From positions 2,938 to 23,885 of IMG/VR virus record IMGVR_UViG_3300030102_007852: a DNA stretch of 20,948 nucleotides. One strand, written 5' to 3'. The stretch comes from a virus. The translations under genes were made by a program, and so were the position numbers. The notes below the pieces were generated by a model. It was not told where the DNA came from. It ran no database searches and worked only from the letters and a program-made list of their open reading frames with translations. This document shows positions 1 to 18,267 of this stretch, piece after piece (the stretch's first letter is position 1; each line of letters begins with the position of its first letter).

Positions 1-188
1 CTGTATCTATGGGTACTACAAGACTGCAAACCCTCAGACATAAGTCAACTCTACCCAGCAAAAACAAAAAAGAGCGCACAGAGCGCACAAAATGTGATGA
101 TAGCAAGGAAGGATCGCTTCGTATTTGTAACAAACGAGAGAGACAAGGGTGGTTGTTGGGTTTCATCACCACGGTTCCCTGCCTGTCT
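1..188. other. Non-coding leader left of the structured RNA
   Basis: No convincing gene is seen. The only sizeable open frame (9-197) has a K/R/T-rich composition with no domain and runs into the structured region. The stretch holds a 9-bp tandem direct repeat (71-88) and a weak stem-loop (148-153 with 165-170, one G.U pair). It may contain the promoter or 5' part of the RNA candidate that follows, but no consensus sigma70 promoter is evident by eye. Confidence 0.5.
71..88. repeat. 9-bp tandem direct repeat
   Basis: AGAGCGCAC occurs twice back to back (71-79 and 80-88), preceded by an A-rich tract at 59-70. It lies about 100 bp left of the structured RNA candidate, where a regulatory or protein-binding site would be expected. 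Its function is not known; two copies of nine bases could be chance slippage. Confidence 0.6.
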
Positions 189-189
189 G

Positions 190-201
190 TTAGTTAACTA
201 A
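190..201. repeat. 12-bp perfect palindrome TTAGTTAACTAA
   Basis: TTAGTTAACTAA is a perfect 12-bp palindrome at the left edge of the structured region. Its half TTAGTTA recurs at 415-421, and the complementary TAACTAA recurs at 464-470 and 741-747. The copy at 741-747 near the right edge could pair with 190-196 to close the whole RNA, or the palindrome could act as a DNA operator or a dimerisation site. These are inferences. Confidence 0.6.
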
Positions 202-468
202 GCCTGTAAGTATCAAGGGCCTTTCGAGAGATAAGAAAGTTAGTCAGGGTGGCTCAGCGTATTAACGCGCACCGGACACCTTCTCGGGTATGGGGCTTAC
301 TTGGGTTCGTCACCCATACCTCTGGCTAATCGACCTGCCCTTTCACTGAATTAACAGGGACCACGTGGGTCTGGCTAGGACTCGATTGGGGATTGATACC
401 TCCGGACCTCAGTGTTAGTTAAAGGGTGCAAGGGCCAGGAACTACCTGACTCACTCGGTTCGATAACT

Positions 469-483
469 AACGGGAGCCCCGTT
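469..483 (+). other. Hairpin competing with an adjacent helix
   Basis: AACGGG (469-474) and CCCGTT (478-483) form a perfect 6-bp stem with a 3-nt AGC loop. Bases 469-471 are also the last three of the 8-bp helix 414-421/464-471, so the two helices cannot both be complete. This could be a conformational switch or simply coaxial strand exchange within the RNA candidate. Confidence 0.5.
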
Positions 484-700
484 GGCTGATGGCTTGACTT
501 GTTTGGGTCAGTTGCCTGACTTGTGAACTAAGTTACAGGATTCTGCCAAGTTCGGCAAGATCTTGTGACGGTTTGGCGACTGGCCCAGGGGCCTGGTCTC
601 GAATCAGTCGTTACAGAGCCGAGCTGCGATGGCTGCGGTTGGACGTGTTTGATTCGTTGTGAACAACATAAGACCAGACCACGCACTAGGTCAACCCCAT

Positions 701-712
701 CGAACCGGTTCG
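701..712. repeat. 12-bp perfect palindrome CGAACCGGTTCG
   Basis: A perfect 12-bp self-complementary sequence inside the structured region. As RNA it could form a short CGAA/TTCG stem with a CCGG loop; a self-complementary loop of that type can dimerise by kissing. As DNA it could be a protein-binding site. Neither can be decided here. Confidence 0.6.
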
Positions 713-755
713 TAGATTGGCACACTGTGTTCGCTTCTTGTAACTAAGAGGAACT

Positions 756-1081
756 GCGTGCGCGTGCGCGATTGTATCACACCACCCCGCCGTGGTTCAC
801 GAATTGTAATGATGATAGCAAAGGACCCTCCCACCAAGTCACACTACCCCTTACTACATTTATCCATAAGGTATACTTATCCCCCCTCCCCGGCACCCCG
901 CAATGTTGCCTTTTTTTACTTATTTGACATATGCGACGGCGTGGGCGAGAAGGGTCTGGGTATCTTCTAGGTATTTTGGGGGTAAAAGTTCTGGGGTAGC
1001 AGCATAATAACAGCGGTTTGAAAAAAATTCGGCGCGGCGAAAATGCGATAAAATTTAAAAAGACTGTACGCTTTGAGATAA
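756..1081. other. Intergenic region with possible promoter elements
   Basis: No convincing gene. It contains a hairpin ACCAC/GTGGT (781-785/792-796), a G/C-alternating tract (about 756-771), C-rich and T-rich tracts, and an A/T-rich segment at about 1018-1081 directly before the first gene. TTGACA is present at 924-929 but no suitable -10 box lies 15-19 bp downstream. The A/T-rich run before 1082 (including GATAAAAT near 1047-1054) is the likely position of a promoter for the downstream operon, but no pair of boxes is convincing. Confidence 0.4.
851..880 (+). promoter_or_regulatory. Weak sigma70-like promoter with overlapping inverted repeat
   Basis: TATACT (872-877) is a good -10 hexamer, preceded 15 bp upstream by a poor -35 (TTACTA, 851-856). 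It overlaps an inverted repeat, ATAAG (866-870) and CTTAT (876-880). It lies between the structured RNA and the first gene. The spacing is short and the -35 weak, so this is tentative. Confidence 0.2.
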
Positions 1082-1537
1082 ATGTCACAGATGCCTAGGG
1101 AAAGAACTCCTGCAGGACCTATTTTTGATTCGCCTTATCCGTTTCCGGATGCACGCCCGCGTAATCGTTACCCTCGTATTCCCTTTCCGAGTCGTCCAGA
1201 TTTAGAAATTCCCGGTGGTCTTGATGATTTTATACTTAGAGAGCGTTCTTTTCCTTCGAGAGAGTCGTGCGCGGAGTGTCGCAGTAGGCAAGATCCTAAC
1301 GTGATGTATATTGCAGATCCCTGCATGAATCAGTGTTCTGGAGGAGCAGGTGATTTTGAACTCCCTGACATCAGATTCCCTGATCGTTTTCCAGAGCCAC
1401 GCCCACGTCCGCGTTCGCGTTCGAGTGAGTATCCAGTTGACTTTCCTCGTGTTGATTCTCGGGATCGTGGTGTGAATGATGCTTTGATTCCCGCAGCACA
1501 GCTTTTAGGTGAGTTTCTCGGAAGACTTATGAAGTAA
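1082..1537 (+). CDS. Pro/Arg-rich hypothetical protein
   Basis: A 151-residue protein of unknown function. It is rich in proline, arginine, aspartate and phenylalanine, with recurring short F-P-D-R type motifs in residues 10-45 and 88-125, suggesting a largely disordered protein. Cysteines occur as two pairs (around residues 63-66 and 80-84), which could bind a metal or form disulfides. The C-terminal 20 residues look like an amphipathic helix. The ATG follows an A/T-rich segment without a Shine-Dalgarno. It is the first gene of a plus-strand series and its stop overlaps the next start (TAATG). No known family is recognised; a minor virion or DNA-associated protein is possible. Confidence 0.7.
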   Translation: MSQMPRERTPAGPIFDSPYPFPDARPRNRYPRIPFPSRPDLEIPGGLDDFILRERSFPSRESCAECRSRQDPNVMYIADPCMNQCSGGAGDFELPDIRFPDRFPEPRPRPRSRSSEYPVDFPRVDSRDRGVNDALIPAAQLLGEFLGRLMK

Positions 1538-5130: not shown

Positions 5131-5847
5131 TCATCCGTGTGATTTTTTATAGTCAGCTACTTTTCCAACGAGCTGCCATCCAGTAAACATGGCAAGATCG
5201 AACGTAGCGAAGGCGTTTAGAGACATATCAACTGCTCTTTTAACGTCAGGATGCGCGTAATCGTCAAAAAAGACCACCCCGCCAGGCTTAACCATAGGAA
5301 CGTATAAAGTAACGTCACGAGCAACTGAAGTCGAATCATGTGCTCCGTCGATATAAAGGATATCGATCCACGGTTCTTCACCGTAACGGTGATGAAGATG
5401 AGGGAAAATTAAGTGTGAGTAACCTTTGATAATCTCAACTTTGCCTGCGTTATCAGATTTGGCGATGTTATCCCGCGCAGTTACTTCAAGCTGAGATAAT
5501 CCGGGGTACTTCTCGGGCTCACGTAGATGTTCTTCGCTACCTGTGAAGGGGTCAATAGAAATAAGACGAGAATCAGGATGATTGAGATAAAAATCCGACC
5601 AAAAACAGCTCGAAGCACCTTCGTAAACTCCAATTTCAACGATTTGGAGTCTCTGTGTAGCATCTAATTCGATTTTTTTGTCGGTATTGTTGTTTTGTAT
5701 TACATGTTCGCTGTTGAGGAGGGCGTCATACCATCCTTCACTAAAGGTATAGCGGTCACTCAGTTGTTTCTTGCTTTTGGTTTCGACTTTAACGTTAGTG
5801 TTTTCTTTAAGCTGACCCATCAGGTCTTGGAAAGAGGATGCAGTCAC
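5131..5847 (-). CDS. Class I SAM-dependent methyltransferase (Methyltransf_24-like)
   Basis: A 238-residue Rossmann-fold methyltransferase, predicted to transfer a methyl group from S-adenosylmethionine to an unknown acceptor. Motif I, VEIGVYEGASS (70-80), binds the SAM methionine part; ISIDPF (97-101) carries the acidic residue expected at the end of strand beta2; ILYIDGAHD (163-171) and PGGVVFFDDY (188-197) match the later motifs typical of Methyltransf_24/CmcI-type enzymes, which often act on sugars or secondary metabolites. The N-terminal 60 residues are polar and helical. GTG start, without a clear Shine-Dalgarno. It is transcribed away from the tRNA-Leu. With the glycosyltransferases nearby, sugar methylation is a reasonable inference; protein methylation cannot be excluded. 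Confidence 0.85.
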   Translation of the reverse strand: MTASSFQDLMGQLKENTNVKVETKSKKQLSDRYTFSEGWYDALLNSEHVIQNNNTDKKIELDATQRLQIVEIGVYEGASSCFWSDFYLNHPDSRLISIDPFTGSEEHLREPEKYPGLSQLEVTARDNIAKSDNAGKVEIIKGYSHLIFPHLHHRYGEEPWIDILYIDGAHDSTSVARDVTLYVPMVKPGGVVFFDDYAHPDVKRAVDMSLNAFATFDLAMFTGWQLVGKVADYKKSHG

Positions 5848-5952: not shown

Positions 5953-6038
5953 GCCTGAGTGGTGGAATCGGTAGACACAAGGGACTTAAAATCCCTCGAC
6001 CTGCAAAGGTCATGCGAGTTCAAGTCTCGCCTCAGGCA
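5953..6038 (+). tRNA. tRNA-Leu (anticodon UAA)
   Basis: A canonical type II tRNA. The acceptor GCCTGAG (5953-5959) pairs with CTCAGGC (6031-6037), discriminator A6038. The anticodon stem AGGGA/TCCCT (5980-5984/5992-5996) holds the loop CTTAAAA with anticodon TAA at 5987-5989, reading UUA and UUG. A long variable arm (about 5997-6014) and a T-arm with GTTCAAG confirm a leucine tRNA. CCA is not encoded. It likely supplements leucine decoding late in infection. It lies 12 nt before the zinc-ribbon gene. Confidence 0.96.
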
Positions 6039-6801: not shown

Positions 6802-7572
6802 ATGAATAGCATCCCTGTTCTGGGTACTGCGATCGTTAATACTCCTTACTGGTTACATCGGCTCTACATGAGTATCGATTATCCAGTCGAAAACTTTGTT
6901 GTATTTAATAACAACGGTCGCGGTCAGATCACCCATGAAGTTGACCTGCTTAAGGAGATACCTAACAACAACGTAAAGAACGTCCACATCTGTCATTTGC
7001 CTGCGAATGTCGGATGCAGCGGTGCTTGGAACTTAATTATCAAAAGTTTCCTCAAAGCTCCCTACTGGGTCATCTCGAACCACGACGTTAAGTTCGAACC
7101 TGGCTTTCTCAAGGAGATGAACGAGAAGGCTCAAGATCAGGAAGTCGGTATCGTCCACGGATCAGGTGGTGGTTGGGATATCTTCTTACTGAAAGACTGG
7201 ATGGTTCAGAAGTACGGTCTTTTTGACGAGAATCTATATCCCGGTTATTGCGAGGATATGGACTACGGGATGAGGTTCATCCACGACGACGTCAAGCGAG
7301 TGCTCGATCTTGAGGCTGATTACTACCACGGTTCTAAAAAGAACGACTATTCCGATGGCTCACAGACTTGGCGGTCTGAACCAGCGATCGCTCAGGGTAT
7401 TCATATAGCCCACGAGCTAAATAAGCAGTATCTGCACTTGAAGTGGAACGAGGCGTGGCAGTCTCATGTCGAAGGAGAAACTTATAAAACTCCTTTCAAT
7501 CTTCAGGAAATGCCACTGAGTTTCACGACATTCGATCTAAGCTTCGTCCGCCGCAAGCATCTCGGGTTCTGA
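6802..7572 (+). CDS. GT-A fold glycosyltransferase (family 2-like)
   Basis: A 256-residue glycosyltransferase, expected to move a sugar from a nucleotide-sugar onto an acceptor in the cytoplasm. The N-terminus has the GT-A start (IPVLGTAIVN, 4-13) and FVVFNNNGRG (32-41); ANVGCSGAWN (68-77) matches the conserved asparagine-glycine segment of family 2 enzymes; NHDV (93-96) takes the place of the metal-binding DXD; YPGYCEDMDYGMR (146-158) carries the ED pair that includes the catalytic base; H176 may be the late metal ligand. No membrane segment. It is followed two bases later by a methyltransferase-like gene, which suggests a shared pathway. Donor and acceptor are unknown. Confidence 0.85.
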   Translation: MNSIPVLGTAIVNTPYWLHRLYMSIDYPVENFVVFNNNGRGQITHEVDLLKEIPNNNVKNVHICHLPANVGCSGAWNLIIKSFLKAPYWVISNHDVKFEPGFLKEMNEKAQDQEVGIVHGSGGGWDIFLLKDWMVQKYGLFDENLYPGYCEDMDYGMRFIHDDVKRVLDLEADYYHGSKKNDYSDGSQTWRSEPAIAQGIHIAHELNKQYLHLKWNEAWQSHVEGETYKTPFNLQEMPLSFTTFDLSFVRRKHLGF

Positions 7573-11904: not shown

Positions 11905-12989
11905 ACCGTCTCAAGCAACGCCAGGATATTCACCAGGGGACACTTGAAGATACCCATGAAGGAGTCGTTGACTCCAAGGGCAAGTTCAATCTCGTCGTCT
12001 TCCTCGTTGTAAGTGCCTCCGAAAGGCAAGATACAAGCAGGTTGCTTGGAGATTGGGCGACCAGTAACGTCTGTCCACCAGATCAAACGGTCGTTTGTAG
12101 AGCCACTAAACAGGGCTTCAGTGCATTGACGAGTGATCCTGGTGAAGTTTTCGTCGAGTGTATAAGCCCCTAAGTGGTATAGGAGGTATGAAATTTGATG
12201 CTTGCTGTCGTAGGCCATATATTTCCAGTGAAAAAATACGAGCCATTCGTTGCCAATTTTGATGGGTGATGTAGAATTAAAAGTTGGATACTCTCCAGTA
12301 ACCTTTTTCAGGCTGCTTGAATCAATAGTTTTGTCGGGTTGTCCAGGGGTTTTAATCGTTAGAGGGATCGTTGAATACAACAGACGAAGACTTTGATCTT
12401 CGCTGAAAAAACACCAGTTCTTCTCAGGCTTACCTTCGGTGAGGTTATCGCCAGCTGGAGGGTACACACAGTCGACAACTTTACCGAAATCGTCCACACG
12501 TCCTACGCACACTTTTGGTTGGTTAACCATTTTGTGCTTGGATGAGTCGTACTTACTTGCGTAAGAACTCGTGATGAACTGGAGGTAGAGGTTGTCGTCA
12601 GGAGCAACAAAGAGGCGTGGATCCTCGTAGCTCAGACGATGAGGTTTCTCACGAATCTTTTTCGCACCGATGATCGTTTCGTCTCCGATCAACTCACCGA
12701 CATACACCTCGGTAGGAGTGTTGTTGTAGTAGAAGTATTTACTGTCGTGCCTAAAGGTGAAAGCCTCTGGTTGGTTTCTCCAGGTAATCAGGCGGTGACC
12801 TTTGTGTGAAATCAAGCAGGGGCTGAAGTTAGCGACTGTTTGATCTGGCAGACCGTATTTAATACGTGTAAATGTGCCTCCAATATCGGAGGCTTGCTGA
12901 TAAACCGTGGGATAACCAGTCGCGGAACGAATGTCGACCGGGTGCTCTACGTAGCTAAGGGTAGTTTCGTAACGAGTTTGCTGGGTCAT
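11901..12989 (-). CDS. GH130-like five-bladed beta-propeller protein
   Basis: A 362-residue protein, beta-rich throughout, with motifs of the GH130/GH43-type five-bladed propeller superfamily: YEDPRLF (121-127), EKNWCFF (189-195), TSPIKIGNEWLVFFH (240-254) and a final GGTY...ALGVNDS segment (324-343). GH130 enzymes are mannoside phosphorylases or mannosidases; related proteins encoded beside glycosyltransferases may act as transferases. No signal peptide, so it should act in the cytoplasm. A good GGAGG lies eight bases before the ATG. It is downstream of, and overlaps by four bases (ATGA), the GT4 gene, so the two probably serve one glycan pathway. Which reaction it catalyses is not known. 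Confidence 0.75.
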   Translation of the reverse strand: MTQQTRYETTLSYVEHPVDIRSATGYPTVYQQASDIGGTFTRIKYGLPDQTVANFSPCLISHKGHRLITWRNQPEAFTFRHDSKYFYYNNTPTEVYVGELIGDETIIGAKKIREKPHRLSYEDPRLFVAPDDNLYLQFITSSYASKYDSSKHKMVNQPKVCVGRVDDFGKVVDCVYPPAGDNLTEGKPEKNWCFFSEDQSLRLLYSTIPLTIKTPGQPDKTIDSSSLKKVTGEYPTFNSTSPIKIGNEWLVFFHWKYMAYDSKHQISYLLYHLGAYTLDENFTRITRQCTEALFSGSTNDRLIWWTDVTGRPISKQPACILPFGGTYNEEDDEIELALGVNDSFMGIFKCPLVNILALLETV

Positions 12990-14152
12990 TTGAGCACCTC
13001 CATAGCTTTTGCAAAGCCCTCAGCGACAGCTTCCCAGCGGTACTGAGGGTTCTGAGTCACGTTGTAACAGTCGTCTGCAACTTTTTTGCGGAAAGTTTCG
13101 TCTTCGTAGAGCTGAGTCAACAGTTCTGCAGCGTGCTTGTAGTCGATAATTCCACGCTCAACGTTGAGGTCTTTGTCGTTGACCCAGGCTCCGACGTTGA
13201 TCAACAAGCCACTCCCATTCCAGATGTCTTTGCAGGAAGTGTGGTTTGGCACGACTTGAGCCTTGCGACACATGGCGTGTTCGAAGGGAACTAAACCCCA
13301 ACCCTCGCCGTTAGCAGTGTTGAGGCCAACGTCACATGCGTTGTAAATAAGGTTGAGTTGTTCGTCAGGTGGCGCAGCGTGATAATTCATGTTCGGAGTC
13401 AGCGCTACTTTCTGAGTCGGATCAATGCCACGTCTGCGAAGCTCAGTCTCTAACAGTTCTTTGATGTGCCAACCGAGATCTTTCTCAGCCATATTCAGGT
13501 AGAGAAGAACGTCTTCTTTACCTACGCAGAACTCAGCGAACGCCTTAATGGTCTGGTCGATGCATTTACGTGGTTGGTTTCGGTTGCCGTTGAAGACAAT
13601 AAATTTGTCTTGAGGCAGACCAAGGCGCTTACGAGCTTCGTTTTGATCGATTTCGTAGAACTTATCTCGGTCTAAACCGTGAGGCACAACGCCCATTTTC
13701 TTGGGTTGCACCCCGTGAGCCATCAAGCGTTGAGCTTGCTCGATGGTGAAAGTGATCGCAAAATCCCAGTCTTTGATGTACCGAAGCATAGGCAACGGAT
13801 ACCACTCAGAGTCAGTGGGGAAGTACGCAATGAATTTGAAGTCAAACTGTGCCTTGAGGAAGTGGATACGTTCCCAGATCTGGTTACAGATCCAGATGTC
13901 GTTTAGACAGATGAAGTAGTCAGGCTTCTCCTTTTCAACGATCTGTTGAATGCGTCCTACCCCGAAACGATCCCCTGGATTGTGGGCGGAAGCAGGGTAG
14001 ATTTTGAAGGGATAGTCGTGAGGATCACCTTGATAATTAATGCCGTAGACCACAACTTCATGATCTTTCTTCAAGTGATCTAGAACGCTGTGTGTTACAC
14101 GAGCGAAGCCAGTATTAGAAACAGCATCCCCGTACCAAAGTATCTTTGCCAT
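12986..14152 (-). CDS. Glycosyltransferase family 4 (GT-B fold)
   Basis: A 388-residue retaining glycosyltransferase. The N-terminal domain starts ILWYGDAVSNTGFARV (4-19), the acceptor-side loop; GVVPHGLD (154-161) links to the C-terminal domain; VFNGNRNQPRK (186-196) is the typical nucleotide-sugar binding strand; and NGEGWGLVPFE (281-291) carries the EX7E pair (E283 and E291) that grips the donor sugar. Full family length, no truncation. It would transfer a sugar from a nucleotide-sugar in the cytoplasm. It is the first gene of a two-gene minus-strand island and diverges from the large terminase gene across 45 bp. Confidence 0.9.
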   Translation of the reverse strand: MAKILWYGDAVSNTGFARVTHSVLDHLKKDHEVVVYGINYQGDPHDYPFKIYPASAHNPGDRFGVGRIQQIVEKEKPDYFICLNDIWICNQIWERIHFLKAQFDFKFIAYFPTDSEWYPLPMLRYIKDWDFAITFTIEQAQRLMAHGVQPKKMGVVPHGLDRDKFYEIDQNEARKRLGLPQDKFIVFNGNRNQPRKCIDQTIKAFAEFCVGKEDVLLYLNMAEKDLGWHIKELLETELRRRGIDPTQKVALTPNMNYHAAPPDEQLNLIYNACDVGLNTANGEGWGLVPFEHAMCRKAQVVPNHTSCKDIWNGSGLLINVGAWVNDKDLNVERGIIDYKHAAELLTQLYEDETFRKKVADDCYNVTQNPQYRWEAVAEGFAKAMEVLK

Positions 14153-17445: not shown

Positions 17446-18267
17446 GTGCTGATCGATTGTTTTCCTTATTTCAACGAAAAAGAGATTCTTGAGCTTCGCG
17501 TAGAAACTCTTAAAGACCACGTAGATGGTTTTTTAATCACAGATGCAAACCGCACTCACAGAGGTGACCCTAAGGAGTTCTCTTGCGTAGACACGATTAA
17601 GGAACTGGGTCTGCCTGAAGAAAAGATTCAAGTCCTTCACGTTGAATTACCTTCTTACGAAGAAGCTCCAGACCCATGGGTTCGAGAACGAGGCCAGCGT
17701 GACGCTTTAAGTGTCGGTCTCTTTATGCTGCCCGACGACACTTACTTTATTTGCAGTGACTGCGACGAAATTACGAACCCAGATAAGCTGACAGAGATTA
17801 AAGAAGCAGTAGATACTCACTGTGATAAAACTGTCAGGCTGTCCATGTCCATGCATTACGGGAGGGCTGATCGTCAGCTTGTTTCACCCGAAGGAGAAAG
17901 GTTTGATTGGCGGTGTGGAACGGCTTCGACAGTCGGTCAGTTAAGAGATTTTGGAACGCTTTCGTCGCTAAGAGCAACCACGAATAACTGGTATGTAGGC
18001 GACAGAGATGCTGGTTGGCACTTGAGCTGGATGGGTGACAGCGACCGTCGTAAGACAAAACTTCGCAATATCGCAGAATACTATATTTGGGATAAACCAG
18101 AAGTGCAGAAACTATGTGAGGACTTTGTGCCAGAAGAAGGTAATACAGACATGCTGGGACGTGAAGATCACTTAATTACGTCTTATCCAGTTTCAAAACT
18201 TCCAGAAGCAGCCCTTAGAATAGAGCGAGTACGGAACTACCTCCTGCCTGACGGTCATGAGGTCTAA
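17446..18267 (+). CDS. Glycosyltransferase family 17
   Basis: A 273-residue protein that matches GT17, the family of the eukaryotic beta-1,4-N-acetylglucosaminyltransferase III with many bacterial and viral members. Seen are IDCFPYFNEKEILELR (3-18), FLITDANRTHRG (29-40), ICSDCDEITNP (102-112; the DCDE is the likely metal site) and GWHLSWMG (190-197), all in the usual order. It should transfer a sugar, probably an N-acetylhexosamine or related residue, to a protein or glycan. GTG start at 17446. It lies 6 nt before the portal gene, so it is expressed with head genes and may modify virion proteins. Acceptor unknown. Confidence 0.85.
   Translation: MLIDCFPYFNEKEILELRVETLKDHVDGFLITDANRTHRGDPKEFSCVDTIKELGLPEEKIQVLHVELPSYEEAPDPWVRERGQRDALSVGLFMLPDDTYFICSDCDEITNPDKLTEIKEAVDTHCDKTVRLSMSMHYGRADRQLVSPEGERFDWRCGTASTVGQLRDFGTLSSLRATTNNWYVGDRDAGWHLSWMGDSDRRKTKLRNIAEYYIWDKPEVQKLCEDFVPEEGNTDMLGREDHLITSYPVSKLPEAALRIERVRNYLLPDGHEV

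Follow-up and report, generated by a model that had tools for sequence, protein, structure and literature searches.

What does an uncultured phage encode in the non-coding gap between two divergent blocks of its genes? The window, by which we mean the whole stretch of 20,948 nucleotides analysed here, covers bases 2938-23885 of an uncultured virus record that is 23,885 bases long. The nearest named phage is Synechococcus phage S-EIV1, to which the terminase is 44% and a portal-like protein 46% identical. Genes left of the window lie on the minus strand. The closest of them is a relative of Kyanoviridae Gp96 (Kyano_Gp96, PF23790, E=7e-43) and is read leftward. The rightward genes start at 1082. 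Ten Ns, a scaffold gap (L002:2928-2937), lie directly before window position 1 and separate this left gene from the locus in question.

As judged from its sequence, the region encodes a large, conserved, structured non-coding RNA. Such an RNA had been proposed in the initial annotation for positions 189-755, and its existence is supported by covariation, but its extent had to be redrawn as approximately 51-659, most likely on the minus strand, with a probable 5' end at about 659-657 and a 3' end at about 63-55, on the basis of covariation together with a candidate promoter and terminator. The earlier observation that the region holds no credible gene was borne out from the window start to 1082. 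Stop-to-stop segments within the RNA are at most 54 codons long, and its translated comparison with homologues gave short similar pieces in which the frames differ or shift. A conserved protein frame, which had been named beforehand as evidence against an RNA, was looked for in the RNA and its homologues and none was conserved. The suggestion that the locus lies near tRNAs is weak, as the sole tRNA detected is a tRNA-Leu at 5953-6038, about 5.3 kb from the RNA, and there is no tRNA in the 2.9 kb left of the window.

Conserved fold

Dense folding of 189-755 had been claimed and indeed exceeds that of dinucleotide shuffles on both strands, with a folding-energy z of -2.95 on the plus and -2.27 on the minus strand. 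Across 12 homologues the mean single-sequence z was -2.57 for the minus and -1.85 for the plus strand. The consensus structure of the whole RNA, built from four window-type sequences, has 98 pairs with 92.6% of the cells paired. Two-sided change was found in 41 of these 98 pairs. Shuffled alignments gave 15.9±3.1, with none of the 500 reaching 41, and slid controls did not exceed 10. The shuffle statistics ignore kinship, and any derived structure is at an advantage in the comparison with slid controls. In the 3' domain (99-328, minus), 25 of 66 pairs changed on both sides, against 8.9±2.1 when shuffled, and 93.3% of the cells are paired in five sequences. The homologues of type A covary as well, with 20 two-sided pairs on the minus strand against 8.2±2.1. 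These tests each draw on four to five related homologues with the structure taken from the same alignments, and in them the compensatory change that the initial annotation had proposed to look for in aligned homologues lies above the controls (41/98 vs 15.9±3.1; 25/66 vs 8.9±2.1).

The predicted minus-strand fold is built of several parts. The 3' domain contains a hairpin at 287-294/313-320, a branched stem at 233-251/270-285 with 257-260/265-268, a compound stem at 128-135/189-196 with 141-149/176-183, and a small hairpin at 108-111/117-120. A long-range helix, 208-216/393-401 extended by 220-221/388-389 (208-401 overall), closes this domain and encloses the hairpin 287-294/313-320 and the branched stem 233-251/270-285; all of its cells are paired, and four of nine pairs change on both sides. 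The middle domain (402-481) consists of 402-408/475-481, 414-424/461-471, 429-434/452-457 and 436-439/445-448 and has 12 two-sided pairs. Towards the 5' end, the segment 517-590, which on the minus strand reads CGCCAAACCGTCACAAG..., is highly conserved in sequence across both types of the RNA, and the whole-RNA consensus structure places a hairpin at 543-547/554-558 there.

All five helices listed in the initial annotation are literally present in the sequence, but they fared unequally, with two confirmed, partial conservation of one and no support for two. Those at 288-294/313-319 and 414-421/464-471 are conserved, with four to five two-sided compensatory pairs each. The helix 532-541/560-569 is kept in several homologues and pairs better on the plus strand, but shows no two-sided change in the window-type set. 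As for the other two, 240-249/320-329 is not conserved (30 of 40 cells paired on plus), has no compensation and competes with a supported helix, and the first arm of 368-374/402-408 falls in a stretch that is absent from the aligned homologues.

Strand and ends of the predicted transcript

It is likely that the RNA lies on the minus strand and is transcribed leftward from about 659 to about 55, because the terminator, the promoter class, the wobble pairs of the 3' domain, the consensus energy and the mean single-sequence z all favour this direction, and the same probability applies to strand and ends taken together. The best minus-strand structure of the 3' domain has 39 G.U and 5 A.C cells, whereas the best plus-strand structure still has 14 A.C. 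For the whole RNA, the minus-strand consensus has the lower energy and more compensated pairs. A plus-strand transcript, as expected in the initial annotation, is thus probably on the wrong strand, although one helix dissents: 532-541/560-569 pairs in 31 of 40 cells on plus versus 23 of 40 on minus, with U.G on plus where minus has A.C, and the strand is therefore regarded as likely rather than certain. The type-A homologues do not discriminate between the strands and have more two-sided pairs on plus, and symmetric helix scans over the whole alignments did not separate the strands. A plus-strand reading of the 5' hairpin was dropped once a longer minus register was seen.

The candidate intrinsic terminator is at 63-88 on the minus strand, with GTGCGC-TCT-GTGCGC followed by TCTTTTTTGT and the stem near 74-88. 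Terminator-like sites are about equally frequent in shuffled sequence, and the weight of this one therefore comes from its conservation: several homologues preserve the stem by U.G pairs that are possible on the minus strand only, and the T-rich tail is found in all. Upstream of the RNA, a promoter-like site at 665-694 (minus) reads TTGACC-N18-TATGTT, which is a weak consensus match and taken alone no better than shuffles. Most homologues have at the same position a cyanophage promoter block, TGTGCCAAT...CACCATT...CCATTG...-10, from which the window's own site differs. An HMM built from 30 promoter sites of cyanophages matched six homologous loci at E<0.05, always on the window-minus strand, the best match being E=5.9e-9 (L093). 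When the block, which makes up part of the conserved core, was followed into other phage contigs, 31 sites were on the gene strand, three on the other strand and none reversed, and an open frame is near 30 of 34 sites at a median distance of 42 bases. The block is also intergenic in named Kyanoviridae (KU594606, 63173-63241; MN018232, 142087-142157). We found no description of it in the literature searched.

In its own right, the promoter block spans approximately TGTGACAGTYGGGGNRNTGTCCACCATTNTCCCCATTGCNCCCCAT..TGCCATACT and is sharply conserved on the gene strand a short way upstream of small hypothetical genes, for example at L183:4931, L201:3079, L211:2271 and about 30 more sites in L168-L237. 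The window has relatives of another repeated motif, ATGATGATAGGGGAANTCC, at 95-110 and 811-826. With only 0-2 copies per genome, this motif was rejected as a candidate phage promoter. Where it occurs, it lies between leftward genes, in one or two copies per genome (G009:69396, G046:77688, G049:28454, and G047:5545 and 961).

Homologues and known RNA families

Homologues were obtained by BLASTN against related contigs, by a pattern of the flanking element and by whole-record searches, and the locus is present in about a dozen related phage contigs. Its flanks (1-94 and about 835-1030) show strong conservation; between them the sequence has diverged except for conserved motifs. The left flank is outside the RNA except for the terminator, and close relatives share 94-96% identity there. 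At least two types can be told apart among the homologues; they have the 5' segment in common and differ in the 3' half. One locus (L088) has a window-type 5' part joined to the 3' part of the other type, and in another (L108) a start resembling that of the other type is followed by a window-type 3' domain. The alignments thus indicate that the 5' and 3' halves are swapped between the types by recombination and that these two loci are recombinants. Such natural recombinants reveal which halves are exchangeable, and therefore make it directly testable which part of such phage RNAs does what.

The limits of the family were approached in several ways. A covariance model for the 3' domain of the window type matched only the members from which it was built and none of 79 further loci, and model R1 had no match in the corresponding stretch of S-EIV1, where about 500 bases are without a recognisable counterpart. 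One locus (L242) has the same flanks and start region, with an RNA body that did not align. BLASTN of named phages with the window or a homologue as query gave no homologue and short matches only, one of which (S-WAM1) falls in the promoter block. A pattern of a conserved segment found nothing beyond the known members except chance matches. The search of bacterial genomes for an antisense target of the conserved 5' segment gave three matches, about the chance level and none of them cyanobacterial.

The right flank seems to be something else. The element at 835-1030 stands before the rightward genes with a T-run at 911-917 and GGCGAGAAGGGTCTNGGTATCTTNNNGGTATTTTGG. We take it as regulatory DNA separate from the RNA, because two related records (L100 and L103) retain it with AT-rich repeats in the place of the RNA. 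Like the window, S-EIV1 has gene blocks that diverge at this place, with a comparable T-run / GAGAAGGGT element, but RNA model R1 is without a match there. The right element as a whole comprises the T-run, GGCGAGAAGGGTCTNGGTATCTTNNNGGTATTTTGGGG and a TATAAT-like site near 1004; it occurs in L103, L100 and L092:14440-14560 and is recognisable in S-EIV1. The AT-rich repeats, TAGGTATNNATACTTA, are upstream of 11467 in L103 and upstream of 772 in L100, and could be an origin or an operator array.

The initial annotation had offered membership of GOLLD or ROOL, or a new class, as the identity of the RNA. The first of these found no support in covariance-model searches: cmscan with all 4227 Rfam families gave no match to GOLLD, ROOL or another large RNA at E<=10 in window 1-1200 or at E<=5 in seven homologous loci, the curated and lax thresholds returned tRNA and chance matches only, and the GOLLD model RF02032 had no match at E<=10 in nine records. 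As no Rfam family matches, the proposal of a new class stands. On sequence grounds, the best reading is that the RNA belongs to a new family of large non-coding phage RNAs, modular in build, and that it is similar to GOLLD and ROOL in size and setting but a member of neither.

GOLLD RNAs have a universally conserved 3' region and a less conserved 5' region and stand near tRNA genes, and both GOLLD and ROOL assemble into RNA-only nanocages. Here the arrangement is the reverse of GOLLD, with the 5' segment shared and the 3' half exchanged, and the single tRNA-Leu about 5.3 kb off is not a neighbour. For ROOL, we know of no citable report that halves are exchanged as modules. The likenesses are nevertheless clear: as in GOLLD, this is a large ornate phage RNA with one conserved and one less conserved part (PMC12286853), and as in ROOL, whose solved example has 659 nt (PMC12286853), it is phage-encoded, non-protein-coding, densely folded and of similar size. 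Unlike ROOL, it has no Rfam match and is outside any tRNA island. There are few large structured non-coding RNAs, most of them of unknown function, and the present one would be a further family, carried by phages of picocyanobacteria.

Proposed role and alternatives

We put at roughly 70% the probability that the minus strand of the locus specifies a discrete RNA of about 600 nt, untranslated and folded into several domains, with its promoter at about 694-665 and its terminator at about 88-63, which represents a new modular family. Transcription would run leftward from the promoter, the intrinsic terminator would end the RNA just before the leftward gene block, and the family would occur in a subset of S-EIV1-like cyanophages. 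The recognisable promoter class and the terminator define a transcript to test. Concerning function, the chances seem about even that the RNA acts in trans in the course of infection, as a decoy or scaffold for some factor of the host or the phage; the conserved 5' segment would be the contact site and the exchangeable halves folding modules. It is doubtful that an ornate phage RNA of about 600 nt with halves exchanged as modules would assemble into or scaffold a particle, like ROOL and GOLLD, in cyanobacterial infection.

As transcription runs toward the leftward operon, the main rival is a 5' leader of that operon, in which the folded leader would set the read-through in cis, with the terminator at 88-63 as attenuator. 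Lambda 6S RNA-like terminated leaders stand before phage operons, and the locus resembles them in having a promoter, an untranslated RNA and a terminator directly before a phage operon, the first leftward gene lying directly past the terminator; the same promoter class is found directly before genes in other cyanophages. The RNA is, however, about three times longer than Lambda 6S-type leaders and has a multi-domain conserved fold, some 600 nt being long for a leader. The one consensus structure examined has no antiterminator pairing with the terminator stem, and phages sharing the left gene are without the RNA, and we regard such a riboregulator as unlikely.

Less probable still is a leader or non-coding RNA on the plus strand, before the rightward structural operon, to which helix 532-541/560-569 (31/40 vs 23/40 cells) and the slightly better z of the window stretch (-2.95 vs -2.27) would belong; the wobble counts of the 3' domain, the minus-strand terminator and the minus-strand promoter block speak against it, and the T-run 911-917 had no preceding hairpin in the terminator scan. 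The position between divergent blocks, with AT-rich repeats at the same place in two related records, would suit a signal for replication or packaging in which the hairpins would work as single-stranded DNA, yet strand-biased wobble pairs with a matching promoter and terminator are at odds with this, as is a neighbouring conserved element that is kept without the RNA region, and we consider it improbable. A highly diverged GOLLD or ROOL RNA would share with this one its size, phage origin, ornate fold and the combination of a conserved with a variable part (PMC12286853), but there is no covariance-model match in the window or its homologues and no tRNA island, which makes this origin very improbable. 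We prefer the reading of a minus-strand RNA of a new family that stands alone and would act in trans.

Two observations concern the genomes more widely. One homologous contig (G046, 80,498 bases) has about 749 bases repeated at both ends with a few differences. This record is therefore probably complete, its genome being circular or terminally redundant, and the ends join at the RNA locus. In the window, methyltransferase- and glycosyltransferase-like genes are dispersed in the structural block (5131-5847, minus; 6802-7569, plus; 12986-14149, minus; 17446-18264, plus), some of them on the opposite strand.
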